Below, piece by piece: positions 13,110 through 48,239 of a stretch of 64,000 nt of DNA. The DNA is taken from positions 30,752,001 to 30,816,000 of the forward strand of contig OX485806.1 of assembly GCA_950295325.1 (NCBI GenBank). Direction: 5' to 3'. Position numbers and translations under genes: made by a program. The stretch's first letter is position 1. The number at the start of each line of letters is the position of its first letter. Origin of the DNA: Polytrichum commune (taxonomy: Eukaryota; Streptophyta; Polytrichopsida; Polytrichales; Polytrichaceae). The notes beneath the pieces are model-generated. The model saw only the letters and a program-made list of their open reading frames with translations. It was not told the origin of the DNA and made no database searches.

Positions 13110-14500
13110 TTTCTCCATTGCTTTCCAAAGCGCCCTCATAATGTTTCCCAAGGCCTTAAAAATGATTTTACAAATCTTCAAAAAACTAGAATTAGTCACC
13201 TCACTGCTGACATGCCTAATATCAACATTTGGGTACTCTTAAGTTCATATGAAAAAATCCTTTATTTTTCTCAAATTGTTTACAACTGGCCCTCGCAACA
13301 CTATCCAATGTTGTCAAATTGATTTTGAACACTCTTCAAAATTTTGATATCAGTCATCTCGGTGCCAAGATGAAAATCATCAACACTTGGGTACTCCTAA
13401 GTTTCTTTGGAAATTTCCTTTATTCTTATCATATTGTTAACAAATGGCCCAAGTAGTGCTTCCTAGGGCTTTCAAAATAAAATTTAAAATTCTCCAAAAA
13501 TTTGAAATTAGTTCACTCATTTTACAAATGGCATGTGTAGTGCTTTCCAAGGCTTTAAACACAATCTTAAGAACTCTCCAAAAATTTGAAATTAGGCACT
13601 TCGATGCCAAGGTGATGAATATCAAACTTTGGGTACTCTTAAGTTTCTCTGAAAATTTCCTTGGTTTTCTTAATTTTTTTACAAATGGCCATCATATTGC
13701 TTCCTAGGACTTTAAAGATAATTCTACAAATCTTCAAAACTTTGGTGCCAAGGTGACCAATATCAAAATTTGGATGTTCTTAAGTTTCTCTAGAAATCTC
13801 CTTTATTATGTTTGAATTGTTTATAAATGGACCTTGCAATGCTTCCTAGGGCTTTCAAAGTGATTTTGAAAACTCTTTAAACATTTTGAGGTAGTCATCT
13901 ATGTGCTAAGATGACCAATATCAATATTTGGTACTCCTACATTTCTTTGGGAATTTCCTTTATTTTTCTCAAATTATTCACAAATGGCCCTTGTAATGTT
14001 ACCCATGGGTTTTAAAGTGATTTTGAAACTCTCCAAATGGTTTTTGAATTAGTCATCTATGTGTGGAGATGACTAATTTCATTATTTTGGGACTCCTAAA
14101 TTTCTTTGGAATTATGCTTTTTTTCTTGAATTGTTTACAAATTGCCCTCGTAGTACTTCCCAAGGCTTTCAAAATGATTATGAAAACTCTCAAAAATTTG
14201 AAATTAGTGATTTGGCTCCAATGGCCTTGGAATCAATTCCTAGGGCTTTTGAAGTGACCTCGACATATCTCAAAGAAATTGAAATGAGGTGTCTAATAAC
14301 AACATTTTGTTAACTTTAAAGTCAGCACAAGAACCTCATTTATTTCTCTCAAATGCGCATCGCTTTCGAGGGCTTTCAAGGTGACCTTCAAAAATCTCCA
14401 AAAATTGACATTCCTATGCTTGGTACCAAGTTTACAAATATCAACATTTGGGTAACCTTGAGATGCCTCAAAATGTTTCTTATTTTCCTTCATTGCTTTG
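13110..14500 (+). repeat. Diverged ~157-bp tandem (satellite-like) array
   Basis: Roughly eight units share the same order: ACAAATGGCCC-like, GCTTCC(T/C)AGGGCTTT, AAACTCTCCAAAAATTTGAAATTAG-like, GCCAAG(A/G)TGA, ATCAA-ATTTGGGTACTC-like and TTTCTCTGAAAATTTCC-like blocks. The CAAATGGCCC-type landmark recurs near 13,272, 13,440, 13,520, 13,680, 13,821, 13,979 and 14,136, so most spacings are 141-160 bp and one unit is half-length. Small ORFs inside it are by-products of the repeat. Confidence 0.8.
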
Positions 14501-22270: not shown

Positions 22271-22377
22271 TTGTCATGTAAATAGCGAAGGTGTGTTACT
22301 GCAACTCGAGTACCAACCACCACTAATAAATACAACTAAAACATGGCAAAGACACACATAAACAAAACACCTCCACA
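22271..22377 (-). mobile_element. Truncated 3' LTR of the methyltransferase Gypsy element
   Basis: About 107 bp match the start of the 5' LTR at 29,990-30,096 with moderate divergence; on the minus strand it begins TGTGGAGGTGTTTTG. The match ends abruptly at 22,271, where the 5' LTR continues but this side does not, so the rest of the LTR has been deleted or replaced. Confidence 0.75.
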
Positions 22378-22388
22378 TGCCCCCCCTT
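22378..22388 (-). other. Polypurine tract of the methyltransferase Gypsy element
   Basis: On the minus strand, AAGGGGGGG followed by CA abuts the TG that opens the 3' LTR. The same purine run precedes the LTR at 30,097-30,107. It is the expected primer site for plus-strand synthesis. Confidence 0.7.
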
Positions 22389-22708
22389 AGCTAACTACGG
22401 AGTCCTGCCAAGCAGCTAGGACCAATGCCAATCGAAAGGGCATGGATAATGAAGAATTGCTCCGCAACCAACAAGTGTGGTGTATGTCATTCCAAGAAAT
22501 TGTAAGCTAGGTGCAGTGTGAGCCCCATCCTTAATCGCCTCTGATGTTTGGCCATCAAATTCCAAAGAATTAAATATGTCGTTTCACGTTTGATTGCGTC
22601 TCTAAACTATAACTCATCATTTTCCATTTAGGCATGCATAACACGGTGAAAGCCACATATGATCATTGAATATGACTGGTGGAAGCACTAGGTACCGAAA
22701 GATCCTCA

Positions 22709-22843
22709 ACAGAGAGGACAACTTCACTGTCCAGATCGGAGAGAAGTCAAGGGTGGTCTCAAGCATGCCATGAGCCAACCACGTTGACACTGATCACACA
22801 AGAGCATAGTAGCTATTCATTTTTTCTCCCCACATATAAAATA
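22709..22843 (-). pseudogene. PHD finger (C4HC3) downstream of integrase
   Basis: One minus-strand frame keeps the PHD spacing: (C)-x2-C, 11 codons, C-D-Q-C, four residues (QRGW), (H), two residues, C, 14 codons, C-P-L-C. The phrase LLCDQCQRGW and the following CLRPPL are typical of PHD fingers that read histone H3 tails. Three positions are damaged by single-base changes: first Cys is Tyr, the His is Leu, and there are two in-frame stops. In the parent element it would lie C-terminal to integrase, where chromoviruses carry a chromodomain, so a chromatin-targeting role is plausible. That role is inference. Confidence 0.75.
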
Positions 22844-22849
22844 TGGAAA

Positions 22850-24150
22850 ATACTCTGGCACGATGGCCAGTTCAGGATGAATTGTACCCTCAATGGGGCA
22901 CAATTTTTGGAATGCTCACAACATTTCCTGCCATCCTTGTCTTCCAACAACAACAAACCACTCGACAACACCTCCTTCACTTGAACGATAGTGCACCCCG
23001 CCCTGGCATCCAATGTCGTGGACGCCTCACGTTGGAGATAGACATAATCCCCTTGCCGGAATCTCCGCAACTGAGGTCGGTAAACACCACTGCGAATGCG
23101 TGCATAACGCAATGTGTCACGGTGTTGAGCAATGGACGAATTTTCCATGGCCATAGGCATGGCCCTTTGGAAGAATTGAGCCCATTCCTGCAAACACTCT
23201 GCCCAAATGTTTGGGTCAACCAAATCCACAACAGAAGCTAGTTTTTCCCGAATAGAACTCGGGAGTATAGGCTTACGTCCATACAACAACTGATACGGGT
23301 TGTAAGACGCCAATGAGGCTTGCCTACTAAATAAATAGCCCATAGCAATCTAAGGCAACATAAGGTTCCAATCCTGGTGGCTTCGCCAGAGTAATTCATA
23401 CTTCCTCAAGCCAAACTTGGTTGTCTGAACAACCTGATCAACCAAGCCATCCACCTCTAGATGATCTCACGAGGTGGTACGGTGATCTATAAGGGCCTTA
23501 GTGCACAATTCCTCAAAAACACCGAGGAACTCCCTCCTTTGGTCTGTCAATTCCTCAGCCAGTGCTCCAAAACATGCCAACACACAATCTAAAAAGGTTG
23601 CCGCAGCAAAATCTACAGAGTTTTGGGGTACAACGACAAACTCAATTCACTTTCTAAAATCCTCCACCATCACCACCGTGTACTGTGATGCATGTGGTGT
23701 GACAACCAATGGCCCTGCAAAGTCTAATAACTAACGGTAGCCCAGTCCCATGATAAGTAAGGGTTGTAATTGAGGTGACAAGGTGTTGAAGCTAGACATG
23801 ACCCGATCACAAACTTCACACCTCCTGACATAAGAAACTACCTGCTGATACATGCCAGTCCACCAATATTGGCCGTCCAACATTGAATGTGTTTTACGTA
23901 TGCCAAATTGGTCAGGTTCCTCGCGTACTTGTCACACCAAGGAGGCCCTCCAATCTAGTCTAGGGACAATACGCCTTGTCCCATTTGACCACAATCAAAA
24001 TAACAAACCATTCTCCCAACCGAATCTTATTATTTGATGTCCAATCCGATCCATTTCCATCACCGAGATAGACAAGGGAAAGGTTCTATGCTGAAGCTTA
24101 TGCAATACGGGCATATCCTCCCATATATACACAATAACTTGAGGTCGATC
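22850..24150 (-). pseudogene. Gypsy integrase, decayed
   Basis: Frames can be followed across several stops. The zinc-binding region ends YVRRCEVCDRV near 23,830. The core begins LLDFAGPLVVTP with the first Asp, and a TDQRREF block near 23,530 gives the second. The expected terminal Glu block reads GLVDQVVQ, so that Glu appears lost. The C-terminal part at 23,343-22,850 reads without stops (ASYNPYQLLYGRKPILP, then GDYVYLQREAS and GLLLLEDKDG), typical of Gypsy integrase tails. Confidence 0.85.
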
Positions 24151-24359
24151 AGTCTCATCATCCGAGCCCTGTATCGGAACCTCAAGAGCAGTGCCAGAAA
24201 ACAAAGTGAGGTAAGCAGCCGCATGCCAACCTGGAACCGCCTCTCGATCACAATTCCCATGCCAACTAGTCCCGGTCAAATCCTCATCCAAAGGACTTGG
24301 ATTGCGTGAAAGTCCATCTACATCCAAGTTGGTAATTCCGGCATGGTGTATCACCTCAA

Positions 24360-25640
24360 AGTCGTACTCCTAGAGTAATTAAGCCCACATGGCGAACTTG
24401 CCAGAGAACTTATTTGACTCCATGAGCCAACGTCAAGGTTGATGGTTAGTTACCAAAGTAAAGCGCTGACCATAGAGGTATGGCCGGAAATGGGCAATAG
24501 CCCACACCGCCGCCAAAACTTTTCCTTCATAGGATGAATAATTAGCCTCCGTAGTGTTGTTGCTTCGCGAAGTATAAGCAACAACATACTTCTGGCCATA
24601 GTCATTCTTCTGAGTGAGAACTACTCCCAAAGCCAATGAACTCCAGTTCGTATGCAATTGGAAGAATTTGGAGACATCTGGATGTTGAAGCATTGGAACC
24701 GCATCTAGTCTATGCTTCAATGTCTCAAATGCTTGTTGTTGCTCACGACCCCAAGTCCAAGGTTGGTCTTTGCTCGTGAGAATGATAAGAGGCTTGGCAA
24801 TCAAGCTAAAGTTCTTGATGAATCGACGGTAGTAATTCGCCAAGCCCAACAAAGCACGAAGTCTCGGAACATTGAACGGTGCTAAAATCTTCTACAAAGC
24901 GTCCACCTTAGTTTGTTACACCCCAATACCTCATGGAAAAATCATATGACCTACATATGCTAAGCGCAATTTCCACCGCCACAACTGTTAAAAAACGGCT
25001 TGCAGATGCCCCACATGCTCTTGTGTTGTCTTGCTGAAGATGATCACTTCATCAATGTAACATTGAGCAAAGGGCAAGCCAGAGAGGACTTGGTCCAATA
25101 CTCTCTGAAATTCAACAGGTGCATTTTTTAGGCCAAATGGCAGAAATTTCCAATGGTAAAATTGATCTTTTCCATTCTGATCAACTCCTCAGTATGCAGT
25201 TTTTACCCGATCTCCCGCAAGTAATGGGAGATGGTGATAGCCGGATCTCAAGTCCAAGGTGCTAAAGACTCAAGAAAATCCGATGGCATCGAACAACTCC
25301 TCTGGAATTGGCATGGGATACAAATCCGACTTGGTCTTGCGGTTAACTAGACGGTAGTCCCCGCAGATCCGCTCTTCCGTCCAATTGCCAAAGATATTTT
25401 TCTTTGATGGCATAACTGTAGCACACGCATATTCCATGTTGGAGAGTTTAATAAGCCTTGTTGCCAAGAGCTTTTGGCAACGAGCTTGGACACCAATTCT
25501 CTCAAGAACACTAAGTCTGGAAGGTCTCCAAAAAATAGGATGGTCGTCCTTCCGCTGAATGTGGATGGGTTTTCCTTTATAGCCTTCAACATTTTAAAAG
25601 CTAAAAGCAAAACACCCACGGTATGAGCGAATGAACACTC
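24360..25640 (-). pseudogene. Gypsy reverse transcriptase and RNase H, decayed
   Basis: RT begins near 25,460 with RICGDYRLVNRKTKSDLYPMP, continues through FSTLDLRSGYHHLPL, and reaches the active-site block QCYIDEVIIFS at 25,048-25,059. The second catalytic Asp of YIDD is Glu here. The connection LLGLANYYRRFIKNFS and the RNase H blocks TNWSSLALGVVLTQ and NYSSYEGKVLAAVWA lie at 24,433-24,852, the longest open stretch. Several stops and at least one frameshift interrupt it. Confidence 0.88.
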
Positions 25641-25829
25641 GTACCTTCCGTGCCTCGGCACTAGTGAGATGAAGGCCTAATTCTACTGGCCAATCATTAA
25701 ACTTTGTGGTCTCCCTCTCTACCAAAGGGAAACCACTTGGTGCTGGCACATACTCTAACTACTACTAAGAGGAGGGGGCATTAATCATGCCCCCAACCTC
25801 AGTGCCCCCCTTACCAAAGTTCTCTGCCC

Positions 25830-26835
25830 CCCAGAAACAACAATTGATCACCATGATGCCGTTGTAATGTAAGGCATAAACCAATAGTCCACACCATGGT
25901 ATTAAGATCTATGGTTTGGCCCCACACGAAGTGTCGTTGGCCCTTAGACATGCGAAGAGTTGATGTGGTGCTCGTGCAAAATCCCATGGCATGTTCTCGT
26001 TCGTCAGCCAATGATTCGGTATGGCTTTTGGTATGATCATCCCACACCATGTCCAACCCCCGATCACGGAATGCGAATGATTGTGGGAAGGTCATAAAGG
26101 TGGAAAAAATCCTCTATGGTGCCCCCACTTTGGTGACCAATGCCAATGGGGGTAAATCATCTCGAACAACTGGCAAAGAAGTCCGGTGTGGGTCCAAGAT
26201 GCCATCCATCTTTTTATCAATTGGTGGAGGCACTGTAGAAAATGTTGCGGGTAAAATGGATGAAGATGCGAGGTTGGTCCATAGCCACAGAAGCCAGTGG
26301 GAATAAGAACCAAGGCCTGCGGCATCCACAACAATGGGATCATCAAGGTGTTGACAAACATAATGCTTGCCTTCTAACACCTTGTCCCGAGAATCTCCCA
26401 ATAGATGTACATTCTCGAATATATACCCTAGGGGTAAGATTGGTGGGCATACCACCACTGCATGAGGCGGATGAGGTCCCAAAATATACTAGATCTGGGA
26501 TCGTCCAACCCTTGGCATGCTTTAGCATGTGAGTGGCCCTGGCAGGGCCATCCCGCTATCACCAAATTCACGGGACCCAACCTTCGTAAGTCTGCATCGT
26601 TGATAAGTGTAACAGTACAAAGGAGATGTGCAAAATACCCATGAATGGTAGTTGGATCCAACTGTTGTGGGTACAACAACATCAACTGGTGGATATGGTG
26701 ATGAGCCATACGAGTGGCCGCTTGACTGTCATCCACATAAACATACTGGCAAACCGTGAGACCAACCTCTAATACAACCGCCAATCCTATACCAATGCCC
26801 TAAAATAATTCCACCAAAGTAATCCTCTCGTCTAG
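25830..26835 (-). pseudogene. C5 cytosine DNA methyltransferase domain inside the Gypsy polyprotein
   Basis: Motifs occur in canonical, non-permuted order. Motif I is ELF-stop-GIGIGL at about 26,782-26,811, where the expected FSGIG Ser codon is TAG (26,800-26,802). The acidic block YVYVDDS follows. Motif IV is VIAGWPCQGHS, with the catalytic Pro-Cys at 26,542-26,547, then GLDDPRSS. Motif VI is FENV at 26,408-26,419. Motif VIII survives as SYSHWLLW, having lost its Arg residues. A ~90-residue target-recognition stretch follows. Motif IX is DEREHAMGF near 26,000. A motif-X-like VWGQTIDLNTMVW is near 25,920. One frameshift separates motif IV from VI. Such enzymes methylate cytosine C5 using S-adenosylmethionine. 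It lies between protease and RT, so it was part of the element's polyprotein. Confidence 0.88.
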
Positions 26836-27176
26836 CGGACACCATGAAATGGTATGTGCCAACACCTATTAGGTATTACGTATGACTGGTGTTGTAGAAC
26901 CGAGAGAGAGGACAACCTCCTCACACCTTCGGAATAGGTTGGCGGAATCGCACCAGGCATGTAGCAATGTATCCGCAATAGCACTGCATCCAAAATCCAT
27001 GGATAATGATGCTATGGTCGTAGCCACCGCGAATGCCACATGAATAAGTTCCCTAAGGCCGTCTCCAGCCGACCAATCTGGTTGGATCCAAGCCTCCTTA
27101 GTCTAGTTGTTCAAACAAAAACCAAAGGGGTAGAGTGGTTGCTAACCAACGAAAATATTGTAGTTGGTTGCATCTA

Positions 27177-27475
27177 TCACTGCACACCTGAGAAGAAGAG
27201 ATGCGGTGGATCTCCAGGGTTCACGCGGAAACTAAGCTGCAATGACTCCCAAATGTAACCAGTGGCCCGCTCCACGTGGCCAATAGAGGTGACGATGGTA
27301 AATAAGCAAGCAACCAAGTCGTCGGGCGTCAAGCGTAATTCGTGGGCAAGTCTTTTGCCGATCATAACTAGTTGTGCCCCCGAATCCATCATCACACACT
27401 GGGGTGCAACCCGAATAGGATTGGCCCCAACCTAATTGACCACCAAAATATTGGTTCATTCACCACATACACGAC
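27177..27475 (-). pseudogene. Gypsy aspartic protease, decayed
   Basis: The active-site signature DSGAQ lies at 27,372-27,386, preceded by APQCVMM in the same region and followed by LVMIGKRLAHELRL. This matches the retropepsin fold of Gypsy elements (D-[ST]-G-A). The upstream frame is shifted, and the open reading to 27,177 is only about 70 codons. It would release the Gag and Pol proteins. Confidence 0.75.
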
Positions 27476-28149
27476 GCCGGGTCGAATGTTGCGGAGCTCG
27501 CGAGCAAGATGAGCAGCTGCATCACACAAATAAGTTGCTCCCGCGGATTCCGGTGAGTCATAAGATGTAGTTTGGTCCTTGCCATTTGAGGTGTGTGTGT
27601 CAAAACACGCAATGGCCTCCGTTGCAAGCCTTGCTCGTTGTTTGGCCGTTTCCTCGGGATCCTCAGTAACCAAGAGGTCTGCGGTGGTTTAAGTCACAGT
27701 GAGAAAAAACAAGAATGCATTGTCTTCTAAAATCCTACTTGCTAGGTGGAAAACCTTAGCCGGTTAGATGTCAGGTGATAACCACTCCATGGCTATAAAC
27801 AAAGGTGTGAACAATATCTTGGATGCCAATGTGTGCACCATGTCGGTTGCCAGATTCAAAGCCTTCATGCTCGAATTTTGACCAATGATAGCTTGGATAT
27901 CATCTACCAATCCAAAAGGCAATGGCAGACGTGCCTAACCAATCTGATCCACACGAACATAGTGTCGAGCTCGTAAGGTCTCTACAGGCTCCATTGTGGT
28001 CGAAGGTGTGGCTTGTGACACAGATTGAGCACGTGTCATAACTACCAGACTCACCACCTCCCCCAAAACCCCGAACATATAATAATTTGGAGTGAACAAA
28101 CCAGCCTTAGCTTCGAATGAAGCCAGTGATCCCAATATTTGGCCAGATG

Positions 28150-29519
28150 ATGGCAAAGTCTTGAACCTCTCCTCTAAGCTTTGCGTCTAATGTTTTTTCT
28201 CGTTCGAATGAAGGGTTTTTCTATGGATGGAAGGCGAAGAAATTTTCCACCAAGTAATTGTTCCGCCCAAAGTGGGCATATTTCATCTGCTTCGATAGAT
28301 ATTTATCACCCTCATTTGTTGAATTGTTAGCGGAAACAATTGGCTTTTGTTTCGCATGATTCGCGGTGTGGACTTATCTTTGTTTCAAATGCCAATCATT
28401 CTTAGCGTGCCCCAACTGTCCAAAAGACCAACAATGTAAGGGATTGTCCCCCTTTGCTTCTACCAATCATGCAGTCACAACTGGAATCTTCCGAGATTTG
28501 CTAGAATCCACTAGTACAGATAGCAAGTCAGTGACATCGTGCTGACACAAAACACGATTACACTGCTCCCCAATGGCGAATGCCTCTACAAATGTTGTCA
28601 GCCACCGTAATCCATGATGATCATAGACAACGCTAAGTCAATGAGACGTTTGTCAATCTTTGATAAAAATACCTTCATCAACTGGTTCCCCGCGAAAACA
28701 CCTCCATATTCCTTGGTAAATATCGTCAACCTCGTAAATATGGTACGAGGTGTGTCGTTTTCCCTCCCGCATGAAGTCTAGGACCCGCTACATTTGATCT
28801 CGACGAAAACCTCCATATTCCTCTTCCAGAATTTTTGCAGAGGATCAAAATCTGGCAAAGGCCTATAGAAATTAATATCGTCTGCGTAACCTAGCCATAA
28901 CGGGAGAGTGGAAAGACCATGTTAGACGTACTTGTGGATGTAGAAGCTAGAACCTTCTCTTTAGATTCACTAGGGAAACGCCCCTCTACATTCACCACAA
29001 AGATGTCCTCTGCTAGGTTCGTCTTAATCATAGGAGCGGCCAATGAACTAGAAGTCGCGCCTTCCTTGAATGCGGACACGAACTCCACCAACATCTCCGC
29101 ATACCGCTTCACTTGGTGAAGCTCCATCCAATGAGCATCTCGCCACTGTTCATATGTATGGAGCCCTTCGTATTCTAGAAATTGGGGCAAAAGCTCGAAC
29201 ACATATCAACCATTAAAACTAGTATTGCGTTGTCGTTTCTCCCTCATCCATGTCCTAAACTAAATTTTCGAATCTTGTAGAAAAATGGACTCTGCTCGAC
29301 CGAAAATCCGGTTTTAGATTCCTCATTGCGCATCCTCTTCCATGTCGTCAAATGTGCCTACCCAAAGAACATGAGACTGAATGATAGTCTTTCATGCCGA
29401 AGTAGGTTAAAAAACTCGTCGAATGCTACCACTGATTCAACGTCTGAGAGGTTAGAGGATCGATCTTCCGATGCCTCTGAAAATGGAGAACGATAATATT
29501 GGTTCCGAGTTGTAACCAT
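28150..29519 (-). pseudogene. Gypsy gag, decayed
   Basis: The ORF probably starts at ATG 29,519 (MVTTRNQYYRSPFSEASEDR) and meets a stop at 29,358-29,360. The next open section at 29,202-28,891 reads FELLPQFLEYEGLHTYEQW and VEFVSAFKEGATS, typical of a capsid region. Near 28,385-28,430 a zinc-knuckle remnant reads CWSFGQLGHAKNDW, with the second and last Cys of CX2CX4HX4C replaced by Phe and Trp. Confidence 0.7.
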
Positions 29520-29599: not shown

Positions 29600-30096
29600 T
29601 AACTTGCAGTTCCAACCACCACCAATCTTATAATATGTTGGTCTGCTAGTCAATCAGAAGGAAAAGAATCAAACCCTTACAAGAGCTCTAATTTTCTCTT
29701 CAAATGTACATAATAAGTCAAGTTATCTCTCACTCCATCACATGAGAATCCAAGAGTATTAGTAAAGGAATAATAACTCAAGATTTATTACAATAACATA
29801 CAATCTTCACCTCATTCAAATTTTCTCCACACACTCACTCACAGAGCTTAACTTGGCAAGAATGCCAAGCCGAGGAGGAGGCTCCTCATTTAGGAGCATC
29901 TCTCCAACTTCTAAGATTCATCCATCCAAATCTACATGAATGAACTCTCACGGATAAGGTGCGGCCGACAAGACCGCATACCATGACAATTATCATGTAA
30001 ATAGCGATCGTGTGTCACTCCAGCTTGAATACCAAACACCACTAACCAATACAACTAGAACATGATAAAAACACACATAAACAACACATCTCCACA
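29600..30096 (-). mobile_element. 5' LTR of the methyltransferase Gypsy element
   Basis: It begins TGTGGAGATGTGTTG at 30,096 on the minus strand, directly after a purine run, matching the 3' LTR fragment. Its downstream end could not be fixed; it lies between about 29,560 and 29,650, ahead of the gag ATG. No convincing primer-binding site was seen. Confidence 0.6.
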
Positions 30097-30307
30097 TACC
30101 CCCCCTCTTAGCTGACTATGAAGTCTTCTGCCAAGCAGCTAGGACCAATGCCAATCTAAAGGGCATGGATAATGAAGAATGTCAAGCCAAGGAGGAGGCT
30201 CCTCACTTAGGAGCATCTCTCCAACTTCTAAGATTCATCCATCCAAATCTAAATGAATGAAATCCCACGGATAAGGTGCCGCCAATGACGCCGCATACCG
30301 TGACAAC
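30097..30307 (-). mobile_element. Collapsed upstream copy: LTR fragment plus internal tail
   Basis: 30,183-30,307 repeats the LTR segment at about 29,868-29,999 (shared GGAGGAGGCTCCTCA and CACGGATAAGGTGC). 30,097-30,182 repeats the internal 3' tail and polypurine tract found at 22,378-22,460. On the minus strand the order is LTR piece, internal tail, LTR. This is a tandem partner that lost nearly all of its interior. Confidence 0.75.
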
Positions 30308-31949: not shown

Positions 31950-33118
31950 TATGGGTGGGAGGGGGATGGGTGTTTGTTTGTTTTCAAGTTTCCTTTTGTT
32001 TAGGATGAGATATGTGAGGTATTTGATGGCATTTTGGTGTATGATTTTCATGAGGGTTTTAATGGTTGGTTTGGGGACTTTTAAATTGGTGACTTTACTA
32101 ATGGAATGTTCGTATATGGCTCCTCTAACTCCTCTTGTGATGGTAATAAGTGGGTTGGTTTGCCATCCATTGTGTTCGTAGGGTGTTGATTAGGGGGTCG
32201 TATTTGTTGTGTTTGTGTGTGAGGGCTTGGTCGGGAATCTATCATGGCAATATGTGAATTCAATGAGTTGGATAGAAATTGCGGAGGTGGGTGCTAATGG
32301 GGTTGAGTGGAGTTCGGGGCGCCAATAATGCAAAGAAAGTATGGTCGTAGTTTGGCTTGGCATGTACATTTGAGAAGCCAATCTGGGATTGTTTGTTCGG
32401 TGGGTTTGCTATGAAGGTTTTCCGGCAGTGGTTAATGTGAAGAAATGGGTGTCTTTGTTGAGATGCAATGTTTGGGTTATGAGGTGTACCACTTTACTGT
32501 GTCTTGTTATTCTTAGGTTTTTTATGTGTGGGTGTTCACATATGGATAAGAGGTGGTGCCACGTGTCTTTGTCATTGTGGTGGCAGAGTTTGCAATTGGG
32601 GTTTTGGTGTGTGAGTGGCCAAAATATGTTTTTCTAGTGATTACCCATGTATTGTGCGAATCTGAATTATAATGTTTGGGTGATTTGGGCGTTGGTTACG
32701 TTGTCATTTTTCCAAAAATGATTGGAGAGTTTTTGGTTTATTTGAGTAATTGATAGTCATTTATCCACATATGGGAATTTGGCTTTGGCTATTACAGTTT
32801 CTCGAGTTTTGTGTTCTTTTGTTATGAATGTGTGGAGGTTGCGGATGGCTCCATTGTGTGTGGTTGTTGGGCAGTTGACTAGCCAATATGGAGTGGTGTG
32901 GGCTGTGTGGATATGTGGAGTGGTGGTTGGTTTTTCTTTAAGTGTTCCTTCGTTGGCTAGAGTGTCAGCCATTTCATTTCCGGTAATTCTTGAGTGTGCA
33001 CGGACTTTATGGATGTGTATCATGTGTGGGGTCATGTTTATTTGGTGTATGATCTCTGCTATTAGTAGTTTGTCGGGGTGGTGATATTGTGATGTTGGGT
33101 GTCGGACGTGGTTGTTTA
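31950..33118 (-). pseudogene. LINE: end of RNase H, zinc knuckle and 3' region
   Basis: 33,035-32,757 reads IHKVRAHSRITGNEMADTLA, the C-terminal RNase H block (H, GNE, AD). Near 32,560-32,600 the block CKLCHHND...HHLLSICEHP is the zinc knuckle that often ends LINE ORF2 proteins. The remainder toward 31,950 is C-terminal or 3' UTR sequence with stops. Confidence 0.85.
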
Positions 33119-33144
33119 TTAAGAATATAATATTTAGGCTATAA

Positions 33145-33748
33145 CAAGCACGGTAAAGTGGACAACTCCTGATCCCTACCTAGTGTTAAGTGAAAGTGAT
33201 TCAATTTTATGTACTAACTTTGAATTTTGTGAAGAAATAAACCATAGACATTTAAAAAACATCTTGATCTACAAAGCCAAGCAATTTATGATGACAAAAA
33301 GAATTCCAATAAAAGTCTACCTATTTTAGAAGATGGTGCAAGTGGCGTGCAAGTAGGTGATATTGAATAAGTGACTGTCTAAAATTTGTTTAAAATATGA
33401 TAAAATCACATTAAATTGATGGTTTTTTACAAAGTTTTGTGGTGATGCCCTCAAGTAGATAATGAATTCAAGGAACATAAAAAAATTTCTAACTTCAAAA
33501 TAGTTAAGGTCATGAAATCTACATCCAAAACCAAACTCGACCATTTGTTTTTGAGCATCACTTTTGATGCTAAGTATTGAAGACCTCAACTTGATATTCT
33601 ACATTTGAGTATTTAACACAACAATAGAGGTCATCATAAAAAAAAATCCAATTTAAATAACTCTTTGCTACTACTTTTAGGCCTTTGACCAAAAACATTA
33701 TGGTTTTAGTATACCAGAGCACTTTTTTGGTCCACTTTACCATGCTTG
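33145..33748. mobile_element. MITE inserted in the LINE RNase H domain
   Basis: Inverted termini CAAGCACGGTAAAGTGGAC (33,145-33,163) and its inverse with one mismatch (33,730-33,748) bound about 604 bp without a transposase ORF. It splits the LINE RNase H between its N-terminal part (YTDGSF, near 33,985) and the block LINNHVRHPTSQY near 33,110. No target duplication could be recognised, so the superfamily is left open. Confidence 0.8.
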
Positions 33749-33759
33749 CACCCATTTGT

Positions 33760-35361
33760 AAATATGTGCATATCTAGTTGGATGGTTTGTGTAAGTTTTA
33801 TGCCGATGAGTATTGCATTACGTTTTTCTCTTAGGATGTTTTGGTATCCTGGTAGTCTCTCAACTATTTGTGTGTTGTTGTTGGGGCTATATACTCATGA
33901 TCCGGATGTATTGCTTTCTATGTGACCTTCATAGTTTTTGGTGGGTGGGATAAATGAGCCATCTGTGTATATGCATTTTAGTGGGTGATATTTGAGGGGA
34001 TGGATATGGTTATATTTTTCTGGTAGGGGTGTCGTGGGGGTGTTTGTTGGGGTGGTGGTATTTATTTTGGGGGCGTCTTTCCATGTTTTGAAATTTTTTA
34101 TTGTGGTAGTGGAGGGGGGTGGGTCTAATGGGATGTGTGTCAATGTGTATGTTTATTGTATTTCTAAGTGTTTGTTGTAATTCATTTGGTGTTTGTAGGT
34201 TTGGTGTGAAATCAGTTTGGTTATGTATGCAAATGTTAGAGATGGCTCTGTGCGTGTGTAGTATTTTGGCCACTTTGGTGTGGGATCGTAGTGTATGGCA
34301 TAGGGTGGGATGGTGGCTAGGATGTGTATGTCAACTTTATTGATGATTGATAGTTGTTGTGGTGTCCAATCATTGTGGTTGACTATTAGGATGGTAACTA
34401 TGTGGGCGTCTTCTTTGGCCGCCATCCTAGGCCAATGAATGGTTTCTAGGGTCGTGGTGTGGTCTTTGGGGTATGCTTGGCTTATTCCTTCCCATTTGGA
34501 GGATTTCGCGTGGCCTAGGGAGCCGAATATTATGTCACAATTGTGAGGTGAGTTGTATTGTGTGAGTTGGATGGGGCGAGTGAGTGAGGAGGAGTAGTAT
34601 GAGTGTGTGATTTTGAAGGAGTTTATTAGTAATTTGGTGATTTATGTGTGTAGTGTTTGATGGTTGTTGTTGGGTTGTATTTGTTTTGGTTTTTTCTTGG
34701 GGAGTATAGTTATGTATCTTTGTATCAGCTAAAGTAGTTCGGTTTCGAAGTCTTGTGGTGGAGGTTGTAGGAAGTTGGTTAGGTGTGGGAGGTTGTTGTG
34801 GGAGTAGCAGTGCCATAGCCAGTGGAGTCTTTCGGTAGTAATGGTGGCCATGTATTTTCCGTTTTGGTCGTATATGTGGGATTCTGCATCTTGTATTTGT
34901 AGGGTTGGTTTGTTCACGAGGATGTCCTTATCCGGGTTGCATTCTTGTGTGGATAGTTTAAGGTTAGTGACTTTTAGGGGTGGGGGGTGGATGAATTTGT
35001 TATCCTTGGTTTGTGTGTTGTTTAGGTATGTGGTATAAGTTTGGGTGGTTTTTTTTTGTTTTAGGGACACTTGGTGGTATTGTGTGATGAGTAGGAGGTT
35101 GTGATCTAGTAGTACGTTGTCTGGGTGCACGAGGTCTTCCTCGGTGCGCCATTGTTGCGTAGATCCGCTCAAGGTGTTCCATTGACATATGTATGTTCTT
35201 TTAAAGGTTAATGCCCCCCAATTGTCTTTTATGGTTTTGACATTTTCATTAATTATGGAGTGTATTGTTTGTCCTAGTATGGGTTGTGGTGAGGGGGTGG
35301 TTTGGGTCCGCTGTTTGTGGGTATTTATTGTGGCCTTGGTGGGTGGTGTTGGTGGAGGGGT
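33760..35361 (-). pseudogene. LINE: RT-RNase H linker and N-terminal RNase H
   Basis: 35,172-34,729 is a 147-codon open stretch (RTEEDLVHPDN, LHWLWHCYSHNNLPHL) corresponding to the connector after RT. 34,143-33,895 contains KCIYTDGSF, the first catalytic Asp block of RNase H. The frame changes several times between these blocks. Confidence 0.75.
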
Positions 35362-35733
35362 ATGAGCACAAATTGTGTGCTCACATGTGTTGTTATCCTT
35401 AAAAATTGTTAGACTTTAGGCTTTGAATTTTTATCACTTACTAAAAAACATAAACAAAGTGCCAGCCAGGCGTTGAGTTAGAATTAAGCTTAAGTTTTAA
35501 ATGATGGTATTTGATTGTTGCAATTAGACTCAACTGGGTTAGAATTCATTTAGTGGGTGGGAATTTAGAGCTTAGGGTCACGAAGGTGAAGGTGGGCTAG
35601 CCGGATTGGTTTAGCTTACTGTCCGTTTTGGGCTCAAGGCCCTGCTCACCCTAGGAATTTCCGGGGTTGCGGATCGGGAGCGGTTAGCCACTGGGCTGCC
35701 TCACTTCTCTCTCTCTCTCTGCAACATGGTGGG

Positions 35734-36126
35734 TTGACTACGGCTGGTGGAAGGAGCAGCCTCGCAGCTGCGAAGTGGCTGAGGGCTCAGCTGCAATTGA
35801 GAACCCTTATGGGATTGAAATGGAGAACCAAGAGTGGCGCGGAAGTCACACCAAGGCCGGTGGTCAGCGGGCGGCTACGAAGGCAGTGGCCAGGACATCG
35901 AAACAGGGGAGAGGCCAGAAAGGCCAAGCTCTCTGAGGCACAACCTGAATCAACCAAGGCGTTCCTACCAATTTTGAGCGCCTCCGAAGGATGGTTGGGC
36001 AAAAGGAGCATGATTGCCCAATGCGATTGGGCCAAGGAGTTGGCTCGGCTAGCAAAGGTGAAGGCAGGAGGACTCTGCATGACTACCCACATGCTCAGCC
36101 AGTTGCGGCATTGCCGAAAGTATTGA
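35734..36126 (+). CDS. Unrecognised 130-codon ORF in the unknown insertion
   Basis: The product is basic and rich in Ala, Arg and Lys (starting MTTAGGRSSLAAAKWL). It has no known motif, signal peptide or membrane segment that can be recognised by eye. It lies in the GC-rich core of the 1.5-kb insert, just after a CT microsatellite. An overlapping antisense ORF is of similar length, so this may be a composition effect. It is listed because it is the only sizeable ORF of that insert. Confidence 0.2.
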   Translation: MTTAGGRSSLAAAKWLRAQLQLRTLMGLKWRTKSGAEVTPRPVVSGRLRRQWPGHRNRGEARKAKLSEAQPESTKAFLPILSASEGWLGKRSMIAQCDWAKELARLAKVKAGGLCMTTHMLSQLRHCRKY

Positions 36127-36490
36127 GGAATAAACAGGGATTGAAGACTAGTTAGGGTGGATCTCAGACTGCCGCATGAAGCAGTGGAATCAGATTGGGG
36201 AAAGGGGGTGAGGATTCGGAGAGAATGCACTAAGTTGGGAATTCAACACCACATTCAGTTCAGTCGCATTGGGTTGAATGATAGACAATCTTGTTGGGCT
36301 CTGAGCTTGGCCAAGGGAGGAGACAAGGTGGAATTTCGATGGCTGGCAGGCTAATGGCTTCTGTTGGGAGGCGAGAATAGATCTGCTAGGTGGCAGGCTG
36401 GCGAAGGGAGCGACTGGGAAGCAGTTGGGAAAAATCAGCAGCCCTGAGGGCAAGGTTGCAGTCCTATGGTTGCTGGGCAAGCTCTGTAAC

Positions 36491-37464
36491 TGTCGTGCAC
36501 CTCTCCATGAGGAGTGGCCGAAACACCATGGGCACAAGGGGGACCCCGGAGTGACACCCGGGACTTGTGGCGCCGTTGGTGAGAGGGCCCAAGTGATCCT
36601 AGTGTGGGTGAGGGCCCCGGGCGTTGGGAACGCCTCCCACCCACGGAGACTAGGATGCACAAGGGTAAGGCCATAAGCTATGCGTAGCTCATGGCGTGGT
36701 GATTCTAGAATGCTCAAGATCACCTCAATCGGAGGTGTGAGCTAGGAGTTATGGCCATTTGAGTGGGGTGCTGTCCCGGGACAGCGCCCTGGTACAGCAG
36801 TACCTGGGAGTGATTCCCGGGACTGCCAAGGTTCAAACAGGCATAACTTCCTCAAGACTTGCTCAAATGGAGCAAGTGAGGAGTCCATCGGCATCTACGT
36901 GAAGCGTAGATGAAGATGGAGTGGTTGGTTGTTATGATCAGACATCATACAAGGAAGTTATGATGGTCTGAAGCTGCTGGGGGGGTTCTAGGCCCAGCAG
37001 CTAAAGGAAAATGTCCAGTTGGCCCCAACTCTTGGTAGAGAGACAAGAGGTTGGTTGACGGTGGGGTAGGGGCCCCGCGTGAAGTCCTAGAGGCTTATAT
37101 GGGTGAGGTGGTGTGGCCTCACCCACCCGAGGCCGAACGGCACGGCCTCCATGGGCTTTGGCCCATTGTGAGGCCATAGTTGCCTAGTATGGTTCGGGTT
37201 GTTGTAGTGTTGCTCCGGCAACGCGATGATCAGCATGGGATTGGACTTCCATGGATGGAAGTCCACATCTAGGAATGGGTTACCGATTAAGGGGTGAGTC
37301 CCGAAAGCAAAGTAGGAGGGTTGGTTCCCCTCCTTTGAAATATATGGTCCGGGGTAAGAGGAGCTAACCATTAGCATGGCGGTATGCGAAGGGTTAGCGC
37401 TCGTAACCTTTGCTAGAATGGAAAATTGGCAACATTGTCAAGGGGGCTAGCAAGGGTTGCGACA
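36491..37464 (+). mobile_element. 5' LTR of the chromovirus
   Basis: It opens TGTCGTGCACCTCTCC and closes GGTTGCGACA, with an imperfect terminal inverted repeat (TGTCG / CGACA). It contains a GC-rich first half and a GGCTTATATGGG block near 37,091 that could serve as a TATA-like promoter element. The latter is a guess from position only. Confidence 0.95.
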
Positions 37465-37466
37465 CT

Positions 37467-37478
37467 TGGTATCAGAGC
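37467..37478 (+). other. Primer-binding site complementary to initiator Met-tRNA
   Basis: TGGTATCAGAGC begins two bases after the 5' LTR end. This is the standard plant LTR-retrotransposon primer-binding site for initiator methionine tRNA. Confidence 0.95.
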
Positions 37479-37494
37479 AGGGTTCCAAGTTTTG

Positions 37495-38540
37495 AGCTCG
37501 CATTTTGAGGGAAACATGGCTATCATAAATGCGGGTTATGATGGTGAGCCCGGGGTTTCCAAAAGGTTGTGAGGCTCAAATTGGAACAAGGATCATGTGC
37601 AAGTGGATTTTGACCATACCATTGGTTCAAATGACAATGGTGGGCATGAGGGTGGATTTGGTAAGGAAAATGGAGGAGTGCTTTGAAGAGGGCTCCCGCA
37701 AACCTCAAAATACATTTGGGGCCTAGAATACCGAAAGCACCCAAAACCTTGGAGGGCATTAATGTTGGATTGAAATTCCAATTCGAAATGCTTGGAAGGT
37801 ATTGATGTTGGAATGAATTTGGTGCTAATGAGGCACCCGGGGCCTCTTAAGGCCTATGTGCGCTATTCAAATGCACAAATAAAGGATACACCTAAAACGG
37901 ACGAGCTTTCTAAGAAATGCATCCTTTTAGGTGGGGTTTTAAAAGCGGGTGGTGGATGCCTTGCTTAAGTCCCCAAGGCTTCTTGAGGACATGGTGGGGA
38001 CCATCAAGTTTGCAAGAGCATTGAAGCCGATGGTCCCAAAGAGAAGTTCGGCGGCGCATCACCACAAGTGGCTTTAGCCAAAGTAGGTCCCAAAGAAATG
38101 AGTGCAAATTGTTTGGTCCATTTTAGTTAGGCAAAACATGTTGGTGCCGCGGACGGAATGTTGGGAGGTGGGTTTGTCCTACCAAGGCAATTCATGTTCG
38201 TGCCGCGGACGGAGTGTGAGAAGGTGGCTTTGTGCTACCAAGGCAAAACATGTTTGTTTTGCGGACAAATGATTAGAAATTGGTTTTGTGGCACCAAACC
38301 AATTTGTCCCGCGGACGAAATGTTTAAAGTTGGCTTTGCGGACCAAGCCAAGCCAAGTTGCCGAGGACCAAATGTTGGACGATGGCTTTGTGGCCAAGGC
38401 TAGTAGCCTTAAGCCGAGGCCAAGTATTTTATACCTTGAGGCTCAAATGAATGGGAGGCTTGTCTCATGGGTTGACAAAGAGTTAAGGCATTCTTTCATG
38501 ACCCCAAAGCTCACAAGGGAGTTGGGGTTTGCCGATTGGT
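37495..38540 (+). pseudogene. Chromovirus gag and protease remnants with a ~54-bp tandem repeat
   Basis: No long gag frame survives. At about 38,125-38,400 an imperfect ~54-bp unit with a GCGGACGGAATG-like core recurs five times (near 38,148, 38,202, 38,258, 38,311 and 38,358). In translation it gives Cys/Arg/Trp-rich repeats of about 18 residues. At 38,447-38,520 the protease block reads MNGRLVSWVDKELRHSFM. The catalytic Asp remains, but the S-G-A of the expected DSGA is replaced. Confidence 0.65.
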
Positions 38541-39230
38541 AGAGTGGTGAAGCCCACCAAGGTGCGGTTTGGAAAGGGCGAACCGCATGAGACAAAGGAG
38601 GCCGCGATGAATGTAACCTTTCAATGTGGGACATTGGAATTTTGTCAAAATTTCACACCATGTGAAATAGATGAAATGCATGTCATTGTGAAGGCCGCCT
38701 TCTTTGAAACTCACATGATAGATGTGAGGTGCAAGCCGGTGTGCTTGCGGTGCATTATGATGTGTCATAATGGCAAAGAATTGAAGTTCAAATTGACAAG
38801 GACTCCTATGGTAGGAGGATCTAAGTTGAATTTGGTCTTAATGGACCAAATGAAAAATAGAAAGCATAATGGTCGTGGTTCAATTGGAGCAACTCCAAGG
38901 AACGTATGGGGAGGCTAGGAAAGATGGGCCTTCCCCAAACAACATTGATGTGATGTTGGTGAGATACAAGGATGTATTCACCAATGTGTTGCCCAAAAAG
39001 TTACCGCCAAGGAGTGAAAAATAACTGTGCTCAACGAGAGATTGAGTTCTTAAGGTATGTGGTGACAAAGGAAGTTGGTGGACGAACATGAAGAATGTCA
39101 AGGCAATCCAAAAGGATAATTGGCCCTTCATTCAAAAATGGCTTAGGTCATTTGTTGGCCTAGCCAACTACTACCACCACTTCATTCGAGAGTTTTCTAA
39201 GGTTGCTAGGACCTTATTCAACTTATTGAG
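38541..39230 (+). pseudogene. Chromovirus post-protease region joined to RT connection; RT palm missing
   Basis: 38,529-38,918 is open (IGRVVKPTKVRFGKGEPHE ... NGKELKFKLTRTPM) and corresponds to the region between protease and RT. After a short YKDVFTNVLPKKLPPR block, the entrance to RT, the sequence jumps near 39,030 to EIEFLRYVVTK and FVGLANYYHHFIREFSKVA, which lie after the catalytic palm. The LDLRSGYHQ and YIDD blocks are absent. Confidence 0.75.
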
Positions 39231-39670
39231 GAAAATGGCTATCCCAAGAGTGGGATGAGCCTTGTCACCAAGCCTTTGGGGAGCTTAAAAACAAGTTCTC
39301 TTCGCCGCCCGTGCTTAAGTTCGCGAACTTTGACAAACCTTTTGAGGTGCATACGGGGGCGAGTGACTTTACCATTGGCGGATGGTGATCCATGATGGAT
39401 GACCATTGCTTATGGGAGCATTAAGCTCCATGGTTGCCGAACCTTATGCGACTTGTGAAAGAAATGGCTATCCCAAGAGTGGGTTGAGCCGTGTCTCCAA
39501 GTCTTTGGGGAGCCTAAGACCAAGTTCTCGTCGCCGCCCGTACTCAAGTTTGCGAAATTTGTCAAACCTTTTGAGGTGCATACGGGGGCGAGTGACTTTG
39601 CCAATGGCGGATTGTTGATGTAAGATGGATGGCCATTGCATATGGGAGCATGAAGCTCGATGGTTGTCAA
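39227..39670 (+). repeat. Tandem duplication in the chromovirus RNase H region
   Basis: About 225 bp (from AAATGGCTATCCCAAGAGTG through TATGGGAGCAT) occurs twice in a row, at about 39,227-39,457 and 39,458-39,670. The copies differ at scattered positions, so the duplication predates the last round of transposition. Confidence 0.8.
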
Positions 39671-39999
39671 AGAAGACAACCAACTCATGCCAAACAACTT
39701 TTTGGCGTAGTGCATTGTTGAAGATGTGGCGATACTATTTGGGGTCGCACAAAACAAAGGTCTATATGGACAATGTGTCCTAAAAGAATTTTGACATTCA
39801 AGCGCAAGTGAGCGCCAAGTCATTGTGGTGGCATGATAGTTTGGCGCTTATGAAGGTGGATTTGATCCACAAACCGGACCATGGAAATGTGGTGCCGGAT
39901 GCGCGAAATAGACTGGAAGAGTTCCAAGCAATGAGAACCATCCAAACCTTGTGGCTAATGTGTGCCGGCGAAGGAAACTTGTGATGCAAGATACGGGAG

Positions 40000-41160
40000 G
40001 GGTAAATTAACTACCCCGAGGCACAAAAGCTTTTAGGTGAGCTTCGCAAGAGCAAGGTGCTCAAAGAGGTTAAGTTGGTGGACGGATTGTTCAAGTGTAA
40101 GCAAAGTCGGGTGTATGTGCCTCAAGGCAAGTTGAGGCTATCGGTTTTGAAGGAAAAATGTGATAGTCCTATTGCCGGCCATAGAGGAGAAAGAAAAAAC
40201 CGCCATAGAATGGTGTCATGGAGGTACCATTGGCGGTGCATAAAGGAGGATATAACCCATTTTGTGAAGGCGTGAATAAAGTGCCAAGTGAACTGAGCCT
40301 CTTACCAAAAGCAAGGCAGTCTCTTGCAACCTTTGCCTATCCCGTCGGCGCCATGGCATAGTATGTGCATGGACTTGATCACAAGTTTGCCGGAGTCACA
40401 TGGGTATGATGCCATCTTGTTGATGGTAGAGCGGTTTGCCAAGTTGGCACACATGGTGCCGATTGTGGGAACCGCCACCGCGTTGGAGACCGCATAGCCT
40501 TTTCTCAAAGGATGGTTGAGGCACCACGGGTTGCCAAGAGTGATTGTGTGGGATCAAGATCCAAAGTTCACAAGTGCATTTTCAATGCATTTATCTAAGG
40601 AGGTCGGAATGAAACTAAGGTTTAGCACGGCCTTGCATTCCCAAATGAATGGGAAAGCGGAGCATGTGAATGGAGTCTTGAAGCAATACTTGAGGAACTT
40701 GGTGGGGGCGGACCAAGGAGATTAGGCGGACTATGTGGGTCGAGCGGAGTGTAATTGCAATGTAGCCACGCACTTGGCTACCAAGGGGTGGTCTTTCGTG
40801 GTGGCTTATGGAGTGAATGCGCTCCAACCTATTAACCTAGCTCTCGAGGGGGCACATTCAACACTAGAGTTCAACCAAGATGGTGAGGACTTGGCCAAGG
40901 ATGGTAAACAAGTCTTGGAGATGACCAAGTTGTTGGTGGAGAAAGCCCGAAGGTGCTACGGAGTGCAAATCAATGCCGGAAGACGCGAAGTGGAGTATGA
41001 GGTGGGCCAATAAGGTGTTGTTGAATGTGGACAACTTCACCTTGCCCAAAGGCCTTACTCCAAAAGTTCATGTCCAAAATTGGAACTTCGTTTTCCATTG
41101 TGGAACAAGTGTTCAAGGACATGTATAAGTTGGAATTACCGCCGGAGATCAAAGTGCATC
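40000..41160 (+). pseudogene. Chromovirus integrase, interrupted
   Basis: The zinc-binding part lies at 40,140-40,310, the first catalytic Asp in WHSMCMDLITSLP near 40,365, and the second in VIVWDQDPKFTSAF near 40,550. The Glu is retained in MNGKAEHVNG near 40,660. So the D-D-E triad is present, but in-frame stops at several points (for example near 40,276 and 40,723) break the protein. Confidence 0.85.
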
Positions 41161-41319
41161 CGACATTTCATGTCTCATTACGAAAGTCATTTTAGGACGA
41201 CACCTTGTGGCCCGATCACAAGCAAGTGATTAGGCCACGTCCCGACCTTGTGGAGGTCACTTGGAACATGAGGTAGGAGGGCATCCTCAAGTGTAGGAAG
41301 CCCAAGTGAAAATGAAAGA

Positions 41320-41450
41320 AAATGTACAAAGGAATACTTGGTGAAATGGTGAGGATACCATGAGAAAGAAACCGCTTGGGTGGCGGCAAGAGACATGGTG
41401 AACACCAATGAATTGGTGAAGCACTTTGAAGAAACTAAGGCTAGACATTC
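41320..41450 (+). pseudogene. Chromodomain of the chromovirus with a stop codon
   Basis: The frame reads EYLVKW-stop-GYHEKETAW, the core of the chromodomain that guides chromovirus integrase to heterochromatin. TGA at 41,350-41,352 replaces the usual Lys. This places the family among chromoviruses. Confidence 0.85.
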
Positions 41451-41472
41451 CAATAAAATGAAGCGTAGGCAT

Positions 41473-42287
41473 TGATGAGGACATCAATCTCCTTTAGTGG
41501 GGGAGAGACGCTAGTAGCACACTTACCTTCGAGGTTAATTATGCCACAACATGAACTTGTTCTTTGGCTTGAGGGAATAAAGTCCAAACTTTAGTGGTGC
41601 AAAGAGAAAAGTATGAGATGAGGTCCTAGTCTTGTACTTGTGCTTGGTTAATGGAAGAGGGGGAATAGATATGGCAAACTAGGTTGGGTAAGCCGAGTAA
41701 TTGGGGGCCATGGCTTGGAGGGGCCTTGGATAAAACCAAGAAACTTCTTAGTTGTGGGCTTGTCCGGGCGGGGACAAGGTGATGGCGCGTGCTCATAAAA
41801 GTGCTACCCGCGAGCTAACGAGAGTTGGCGCATGGGAGTCATGAACCCATGTCTCGAAAGAGCAAAGTGGGAACCGAGTCGGGCGGGACTTGGCATCACC
41901 CCCGTGCGATCGAGGCGTGGCTTAACAATGGAAGGCCATCTCGGAGTTGCAACCGAGACAACTTAGTGGAAGCGTTGAGGTCTCGCCTAGATGTGTCACG
42001 TTAGGCTAATGGAGCCTAACGGGGGAGGCCCCAAAGGAGGGGCAACCCATGTGAGTCCCGAAGTAGGTGGGTCTAGTATAGGTTAGGTCCTTGGAGGAGT
42101 TCCAAGGTCGCTAACGGACCACCTAGTAACGACACCTTTGGGACTATGCCAAATTTGAAGATGCATTGTGGGGGTCGCGCCCTAAGGTAAACACAATGCC
42201 GCACCATAGAGGATGGCAACTTGAGAATTGGTGTGCCGACTACGAGTATAGTCGATGAGGGCATCGACTCCGTTTGGTGGGGGTGAG
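41473..42287 (+). other. Extra ~780-bp segment between two polypurine-tract-like copies
   Basis: GATGAGGACATCAATCTCC followed by TTTAGTGGGGGAGAGACGC (about 41,473-41,511) is mirrored by a similar block at 42,252-42,292 that abuts the 3' LTR. The second is the functional polypurine tract (GGTGGGGGTGAG, 42,276-42,287). The 740 bp in between have no recognised coding content. Confidence 0.55.
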
Positions 42288-43258
42288 TGTCGCGCACCTC
42301 TCCATGAGGAGTGGCCGAAACACCATGGGCACAAGGGGGACCCCGGAGTGACACCCGGGACTTGTGGCGCCGTTGGTGAGAGGGCCCAAGTGATCCTAGT
42401 GTGGGTGAGGGCCCCGGGCGTTGGGAACGCCTCCCACCCACGGAGACTAGGATGCACAAGGGTAAGGCCATAAGCTATGCGTAGCTCATGGCGTGGTGAT
42501 TCTAGAATGCTCAAGATCACCTCAATCGGAGGTGTGAGCTAGGAGTTATGGCCATTTGAGTGGGGTGCTGTCCCGGGACAGCGCCCTGGTACAGCAGTAC
42601 CTGGGAGTGATTCCCGGGACTGCCAAGGTTCAAACAGGCATAACTTCCTCAAGACTTGCTCAAATGGAGCAAGTGAGGAGTCCATCGGCATCTACGTGAA
42701 GCGTAGATGAAGATGGAGTGGTTGGTTGTTATGATCAGACATCATACAAGGAAGTTATGATGGTCTGAAGCTGCTGGGGGGGTTCTAGGCCCAGCAGCTA
42801 AAGGAAAATGTCCAGTTGGCCCCAACTCTTGGTAGAGAGACAAGAGGTTGGTTGACGGTGGGGTAGGGGCCCCGCGTGAAGTCCTAGAGGCTTATATGGG
42901 TGAGGTGGTGTGGCCTCACCCACCCGAGGCCGAACGGCACGGCCTCCATGGGCTTTGGCCCATTGTGAGGCCATAGTTGCCTAGTATGGTTCGGGTTGTT
43001 GTAGTGTTGCTCCGGCAACGCGATGATCAGCATGGGATTGGACTTCCATGGATGGAAGTCCACATCTAGGAATGGGTTACCGATTAAGGGGTGAGTCCCG
43101 AAAGCAAAGTAGGAGGGTTGGTTCCCCTCCTTTGAAATATATGGTCCGGGGTAAGAGGAGCTAACCATTAGCATGGCGGTATGCGAATTAGCGCTCGTAA
43201 CCTTTGCTAGAATGGAAAATTGGCAACATTGTCAAGGGGGCTAGCAAGGGTTGCGACA
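42288..43258 (+). mobile_element. 3' LTR of the chromovirus
   Basis: It is nearly identical to the 5' LTR: TGTCGC instead of TGTCGT at the start and a 3-bp deletion near 43,187. It is followed directly by the GTAAC target duplication. Confidence 0.95.
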
Positions 43259-46880: not shown

Positions 46881-46889
46881 TTTGTCACG

Positions 46890-47960: not shown

Positions 47961-48239
47961 GATTGATAGCTTTTTTGTAATGAATCAAGATCGTATTTTG
48001 ATTATTCAAAATATTGGTTTAAAAAAAATTGTAACCCCAAATTGAGGTGACATTTTAGAATAAAATGTACATGTCAATTGAAATTCACGTGACACTTTAA
48101 ATGGGAAGTTGAATGTCAAATGATATTTGTCAAACATACACAGTGACATAAAACTCATCAATATTAGAAGGATCAAAGTCTAATATCAACCAACCAATAT
48201 AGGACAAAGGGACCACATAAGGCATACACACCTCAATGC

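Follow-up and report, generated by a model that had tools for sequence, protein, structure and literature searches.

A DNMT3-type cytosine methyltransferase in a decayed, probably Ty3/Gypsy retrotransposon of a moss

Transposons are the usual targets of DNA methylation; what, then, is a cytosine methyltransferase doing in the coding region of one? The question is raised by a 64,000-nucleotide stretch of the Polytrichum commune genome (contig OX485806.1, positions 30,752,001 to 30,816,000; the whole stretch is called the window here), in which a preliminary description, made from the letters alone, had placed a cytosine-5 DNA methyltransferase (MTase) captured inside a plant Gypsy element. We find that the locus is probably an inactive, old moss Ty3/Gypsy long terminal repeat (LTR) retrotransposon, a member of a streptophyte family in which one open reading frame (ORF1) encodes gag, protease and a DNMT3-type MTase, and a second (ORF2) encodes reverse transcriptase (RT), RNase H, integrase and a PHD finger.

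A methyltransferase between protease and reverse transcriptase

Reading the minus strand of 31000-22001 in three frames bore out the motif order of the preliminary description: the C5-MTase motifs occur in canonical order, on the pol strand, between the protease motif MDSGAQ (near 27386) and the RT/RNase H region (~25500-24400). These are motif I (LF*GIGIG, 26808-26785, with a stop inside the motif), motif IV (GWPCQGHS, 26553-26530), motif VI (YIFENV, 26425-26408), a degraded motif VIII (SHWLLWLWTN) that has lost its Arg, and motif IX (DEREHAMGF) followed by motif X, QRHFVWGQTIDLN, with the domain ending near 25830. The Pfam check proposed in that description was positive, as the open piece 26784-26428 matched DNA_methylase at 29.7 bits (E = 5.9e-7; cut-off 22) and the read-through translation of the domain reached 32.6 bits; NCBIfam TIGR00675 (dcm) matched at E = 7.9e-8 and 32.3 bits, under its cut-off of 100.65. 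The pieces 26482-26114 and 26095-25811, searched singly, had no match in PDB, NCBIfam or Pfam, and they are assigned to the MTase because family members align there. A protein search with the read-through translation retrieved 34 relatives at E <= 1e-3 among 2621 candidates (186-584 residues long), the best at 72% identity, 91% query coverage and E = 1.4e-146, which excludes a chance resemblance and confirms, at the level of sequence, that the domain is real. This copy is dead: the domain is broken by two in-frame stops and by a single frameshift near 26430, with a stop inside motif I and no Arg in motif VIII; a third stop in one count is taken to be the frame running on beyond the frameshift.

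An open relative was recovered by a profile search of genome contigs with an alignment of eight relatives, which returned five loci, the other four being from Streptomyces. This locus, L001, is a contig of 9285 bases that is catalogued under an uncultured Synechococcales metagenome-assembled genome (MAG); judging from its content, it is probably mis-binned plant retrotransposon DNA, and its ends are identical over 127 bases, as expected of a collapsed LTR element. (One of the protein relatives, P0005, is labelled as an Obscuribacterales MAG and is probably mis-binned as well.) ORF1 of L001 encodes gag with zinc-knuckle motifs, an aspartic protease (20.5 bits, under the Pfam cut-off of 24.3) and the MTase (Pfam, 45.9 bits), and ends with a TAG at 3489-3491; ORF2 continues in the same frame past the TAG with RT, RNase H, integrase and a PHD finger (PF00628, 4.3e-10). 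The proteins of L001 match the window colinearly, on one strand and with no interruption from gag to PHD, giving the following features, all on the minus strand:

29990..30180, minus: upstream terminal direct repeat, LTR part and G-run tract; 86% over 191 columns to 22271-22457, same orientation
28176..29415, minus: gag, frame-shifted; tblastn with L001 gag, 40% over 186 aa (29415-28861) and 32% over 235 aa (28829-28176)
27455..28177, minus: gag-protease joining region; 36% over 246 aa to L001 ORF1
27213..27452, minus: aspartic protease (MDSGAQ, motif read); 51% over 80 aa to L001
26860..27192, minus: protease-MTase linker; within a 48% match of 27192-26392 to L001 ORF1
25812..26859, minus: DNMT3-type cytosine MTase, pseudogene; motifs, Pfam and relatives, 48-50% to L001 (50% at 26434-25826)
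25759..25767, minus: stop cluster TAG TAG TAG, then TTA, at the ORF1/ORF2 border; L001 has one TAG there, then CAATCA
22894..25749, minus: RT, RNase H and integrase, with stops; 72% over 964 aa to L001 ORF2 (Pfam RT_RNaseH_2 at 24852-24433, 1.5e-31)
22709..22897, minus: C-terminal PHD finger, degraded; 65% over 63 aa to L001 PHD (E 6e-21)
22271..22457, minus: downstream terminal direct repeat with a G-run resembling a polypurine tract; 86% to the upstream repeat

The pol order of RT, RNase H and integrase, with gag and an aspartic protease upstream, is that of Ty3/Gypsy elements, as seen from the colinearity with L001 and from the Pfam domains of the latter. A chromodomain after the integrase was considered and rejected, as Pfam lists PHD and no Chromo for L001 ORF2 at E <= 0.1. 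The repeats upstream of gag are arranged A-B-A (29858-30306), perhaps because of a truncated tandem neighbour. We also considered DIRS-like split-repeat ends: the window has A-B-A before the genes and B after them, whereas the published Symbiodinium split-repeat pattern, to which KnitGypsy was likened, is A-coding-B-A-B, and the tandem neighbour would be the simpler account.

Relatives, domain order and kinship

A protein search with the L001 MTase yielded at least 48 proteins among 7996 scored candidates. The matches listed include ORFs of 1228-1451 residues at 55-92% identity, plus some shorter ones, and those with host names come from Calypogeia fissa (51%), Marchantia polymorpha (eleven, 41-48%), Sphagnum fallax (35%), Closterium (five, 30-46%) and others. 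Most matches carry no host name; among the host-named relatives listed in both MTase protein searches there was no vascular plant and no Klebsormidium protein, and Physcomitrium patens is not among the named L001 matches listed, which is no proof of absence from its genome. The preliminary description had assigned the element to a vascular-plant Gypsy lineage: the Gypsy lineage holds, but the vascular host does not, because an intact F-box/LRR gene of the window (7446-8843, minus strand) encodes a protein whose nearest named relatives are mosses (among the best 120 of 763 matches, identity is 99% with a JGI protein, 76% with P. patens and 74% with Ceratodon purpureus, against 60-65% for the named liverworts and 52-57% for the named ferns).

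The 82 proteins P0001-P0082 include 46 with motif X by a simple pattern and 26 with both motif X and the protease motif. The preliminary description had held that a protease joined directly to RT, with the MTase present at this locus alone, would speak against capture; instead, the protease precedes the MTase in all of these (26/26), and the open members come from elsewhere than the window's genome. Four of the 26, namely Closterium P0073 and three gene models of Marchantia, run on into RT within one protein. In the 18 best-ranked relatives (P0035-P0052) the chain extends for another 77-156 residues past motif X and shows no RT motif; contig ends or decay may account for some of these. Other placements also occur: P0070 has the order RT-RNase H-MTase-integrase-PHD, which P0074 and P0079 fit in part, and in P0082 the MTase comes first, hinting at domain shuffling or repeated capture.

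That a host or bacterial gene fragment was nested in the element by chance could be suspected from the broken state of the window copy and from its being the sole MTase copy in the window. Nevertheless, the same order recurs in L001, Marchantia, Closterium and further proteins, and the match between window and L001 is colinear and uninterrupted; with these independent relatives, nesting is ruled out for practical purposes, and its probability is next to nil. The capture claim of the preliminary description therefore stands.

Of the 56 MTase family members, 51 to 56 retain the catalytic residues. As in the DNMT-bearing retrotransposons of de Mendoza et al., the MTase sits in the element's coding region and its key residues are conserved across the family. 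In a tree of 52 rows (family members only, four of the 56 dropped: P0072, P0076, P0080 and P0082; midpoint-rooted for drawing), the window groups with P0001, P0002 and P0003 (100/99) inside a 23-row group that includes L001 (100/99); a separate group of 15 rows contains Marchantia, Calypogeia and Sphagnum, and the long branches of Closterium, P0070 and P0075 are of unsure placement.

A profile of the relatives matched DNMT3A at 2e-18, DRM at 1.7e-10 and HaeIII at 3.8e-8, with no DNMT1 at E <= 0.001, and in a fold comparison of the L001 MTase DNMT3A/B ranked first, above HaeIII and HhaI. On this basis, the catalytic domain resembles DNMT3 more than it does DRM, DNMT1 or bacterial enzymes. A microbial or viral derivation (bacterium, phage or giant virus, as opposed to a eukaryotic DNMT3) has in its favour the GWPCQ motif, matches to phage and Streptomyces MTases, and a single-sequence phmmer search of one window piece in which HaeIII ranked first; matches in a viral structure library were likewise phage and giant-virus cytosine MTases. 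However, HaeIII and HhaI come behind DNMT3A/B in the family profile as well as in the fold comparison, and the microbial matches are partial: the Streptomyces loci (4/5 genome-contig loci) are 36-46% and the six viral-contig loci 38-61% identical, over 33-101 query residues, and none of 163 phage or 35 plasmid protein records covers 80% of the query, all being below 60% identity. The 20 records listed from each of these two sets were distant MTases. One scan of viral contigs for the MTase confirmed none, and another gave the six loci, whose best segments reach 38-61% over short parts; a viral-contig scan for ORF2 and a plasmid search at the DNA level found no match. A bacterial origin was accordingly set aside as first choice on the profile and fold ranking, and a microbial or viral source appears improbable.

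Possible roles of the enzyme in the element

In the comparison with L001, the fraction of differing sites in the window MTase is 0.34 at codon position 1, 0.26 at position 2 and 0.59 at position 3 (a few codons past the frameshift may be out of frame, slightly raising these figures); the corresponding values are 0.19, 0.11 and 0.51 for RT-RNase H, 0.21, 0.14 and 0.54 for integrase, and 0.50, 0.39 and 0.64 for gag. The third-position excess (0.59 versus 0.26 at position 2) suggests, for this one pair, that the MTase was constrained, less so than RT and integrase.

Since ORF1 closes with the MTase and an in-frame TAG follows, the enzyme would be produced together with Gag and protease, whereas RT and integrase would arise only by readthrough of the TAG. 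The stop context in L001 is TAG CAA TCA, which we take to agree with the tobamovirus-type readthrough consensus. The enzyme may then be packaged and methylate de novo the double-stranded cDNA or the fresh insert, so that a new copy would enter the genome already resembling host-methylated DNA. The PHD finger on the integrase might in turn tether the element to a chosen histone H3 state. In sequence, the PHD resembles those of CHD4, UHRF1, KDM5 and PHF21A (BHC80), several of which bind H3 unmodified at K4; by analogy, this likeness may be a weak lead on integration targeting. Self-methylation of cDNA is our leading idea because retrotransposon DNMTs are reported to methylate CG de novo (PMC5890265), and taken as a mechanism by itself it is tentative, at a little under even confidence. 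The suggestion of the preliminary description, that the enzyme perhaps marks the element's own copies or its integration sites, is likewise a reasonable conjecture. A fuller scheme would be an ancient Gypsy lineage of streptophytes with a PHD on its integrase and a DNMT3-type MTase packaged at Gag-like stoichiometry, writing host-type methylation on its own cDNA and steering to H3K4-unmethylated chromatin: a self-silencing, heterochromatin-homing element ranging from algae to mosses, whose MTase was re-placed at least once within pol (P0070). As a whole, this is speculative and unlikely.

Several observations weigh against the element as we read it, or against this use of its enzyme. The terminal direct repeats at both ends (187-191 bases, 86% alike) are only partly resolved; no tRNA-Met primer binding site was found in L001 at up to three mismatches, and close to the element in the window the four candidates, each with 3-4 mismatches, are unconvincing. 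The stop context was read from a single open copy, L001, that of the window being degraded. Two named relatives are imperfect in the aligned rows, motif IV being absent from Sphagnum P0078 and motif VIII from Closterium P0073. Sequence change is quicker in the MTase (56% identical residues) than in RT-RNase H (75%) or integrase (72%). Finally, a scar of self-methylation, sought as CG depletion, was not seen: observed/expected CG is 0.64 in the element, not below the 0.51 of the window (MTase 0.52; a neighbouring LTR element without MTase 0.60; L001 coding sequence 0.78).

The last of these observations would equally suit an MTase with another role, such as RNA or DNA binding in the particle, methylation of host DNA at the integration site, or damping of transposition to the host's benefit. 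Such a role would also fit the placement of the MTase in the Gag frame rather than with RT, as seen in L001 and the relatives closest to it, and RNA methylation and slowed transposition are among the options discussed by de Mendoza et al. (PMC5890265). Pure binding, however, would not need the catalytic residues that nearly all family members keep, and we regard another role as possible but on the unlikely side. A passenger kept by chance, with no function in transposition, is suggested by the Symbiodinium elements without DNMT, which are reported to expand in patterns similar to those of DNMT-bearing ones (PMC5890265); against it stand the third-position excess in MTase codons and the moss, liverwort and zygnematophyte relatives, which at 30-51% identity to L001 retain the catalytic residues, so that a mere passenger seems very improbable.

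Elements encoding a de novo methyltransferase have been published for dinoflagellates and one charophyte (PMC5890265). The latter, KnitGypsy-Dnmt3 of Klebsormidium nitens (de Mendoza et al. 2018, PMC5890265), is described as sharing the Gypsy domain set, an unrearranged DNMT3-type MTase in the coding region, conserved key residues and a streptophyte host; it differs in having the MTase inside the Pol ORF and a DIRS-like repeat structure, whereas the L001 MTase closes ORF1 before the TAG, the L001 integrase ends in a PHD, the window repeats are LTR-like though not settled, and the named hosts are bryophytes and Closterium. SymbioDIRS-Dnmt3 and SymbioLINE-Dnmt of Symbiodinium also encode cytosine MTases (DNMT3-type in the DIRS case), but are described as a tyrosine-recombinase DIRS and a LINE of dinoflagellates (PMC5890265), unlike the present Gypsy element with its rve integrase. 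The cellular plant enzymes PpDNMT3a/b and DRM share the DNMT3-type catalytic fold, and the linear motif order is as in DNMT3; PpDNMT3 is reported with DUF3444 and DRM with a reorganised motif order (PMC6453930), whereas the present MTase belongs to a gag-protease polyprotein. Chromoviruses likewise carry a histone-reader-type domain after the integrase of a plant Gypsy pol, but theirs is a chromodomain, not a PHD finger (PF00628) accompanied by an MTase. A Gypsy-type integrase core with a C-terminal PHD is reported in one family of Ginger1 (Ginger1-9_HM), an animal DNA transposon described without RT or MTase in the portions available (PMC2836005).

Among the papers listed in searches of one open-access library (preprints and most subscription journals being outside its scope), we found no description of MTase-bearing bryophyte elements: none appears in the available text of PMC5890265, PMC6317226, PMC9033089, PMC12477816, PMC8775202, PMC6338049, PMC12344493, PMC9516144, PMC6453930, PMC5784723 or PMC2836005, and the word methyltransferase is absent from the main text of the Neumann 2019 plant survey (PMC6317226). 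The sequences indicate that DNMT3-bearing Gypsy elements occur in land plants (bryophytes), beyond a few algae. With Marchantia polymorpha, a genetic model, among the liverworts that share the arrangement with a moss, the enzyme's role for the element could be tested by gene removal, and DNMT3-like gene models in bryophyte annotations may prove to be retrotransposon genes.

Other features of the window

A second LTR retrotransposon lies at 36486-43277 on the plus strand. Its repeat pieces are 90-99% identical, and the upstream one carries a tRNA-Met-like TGGTATCAGAGC at its end; similarity to RT/integrase is weak (39070-40734), and the MTase has no match there. At 13122-14288 there is a diverged direct-repeat array, comprising nine copies of a 75-base unit (61-79% to a reference copy) spaced mostly ~157 bases apart. 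GC skew is strongly positive (0.20 to 0.48) over 32001-48000 and of opposite sign in the preceding 20 kb.
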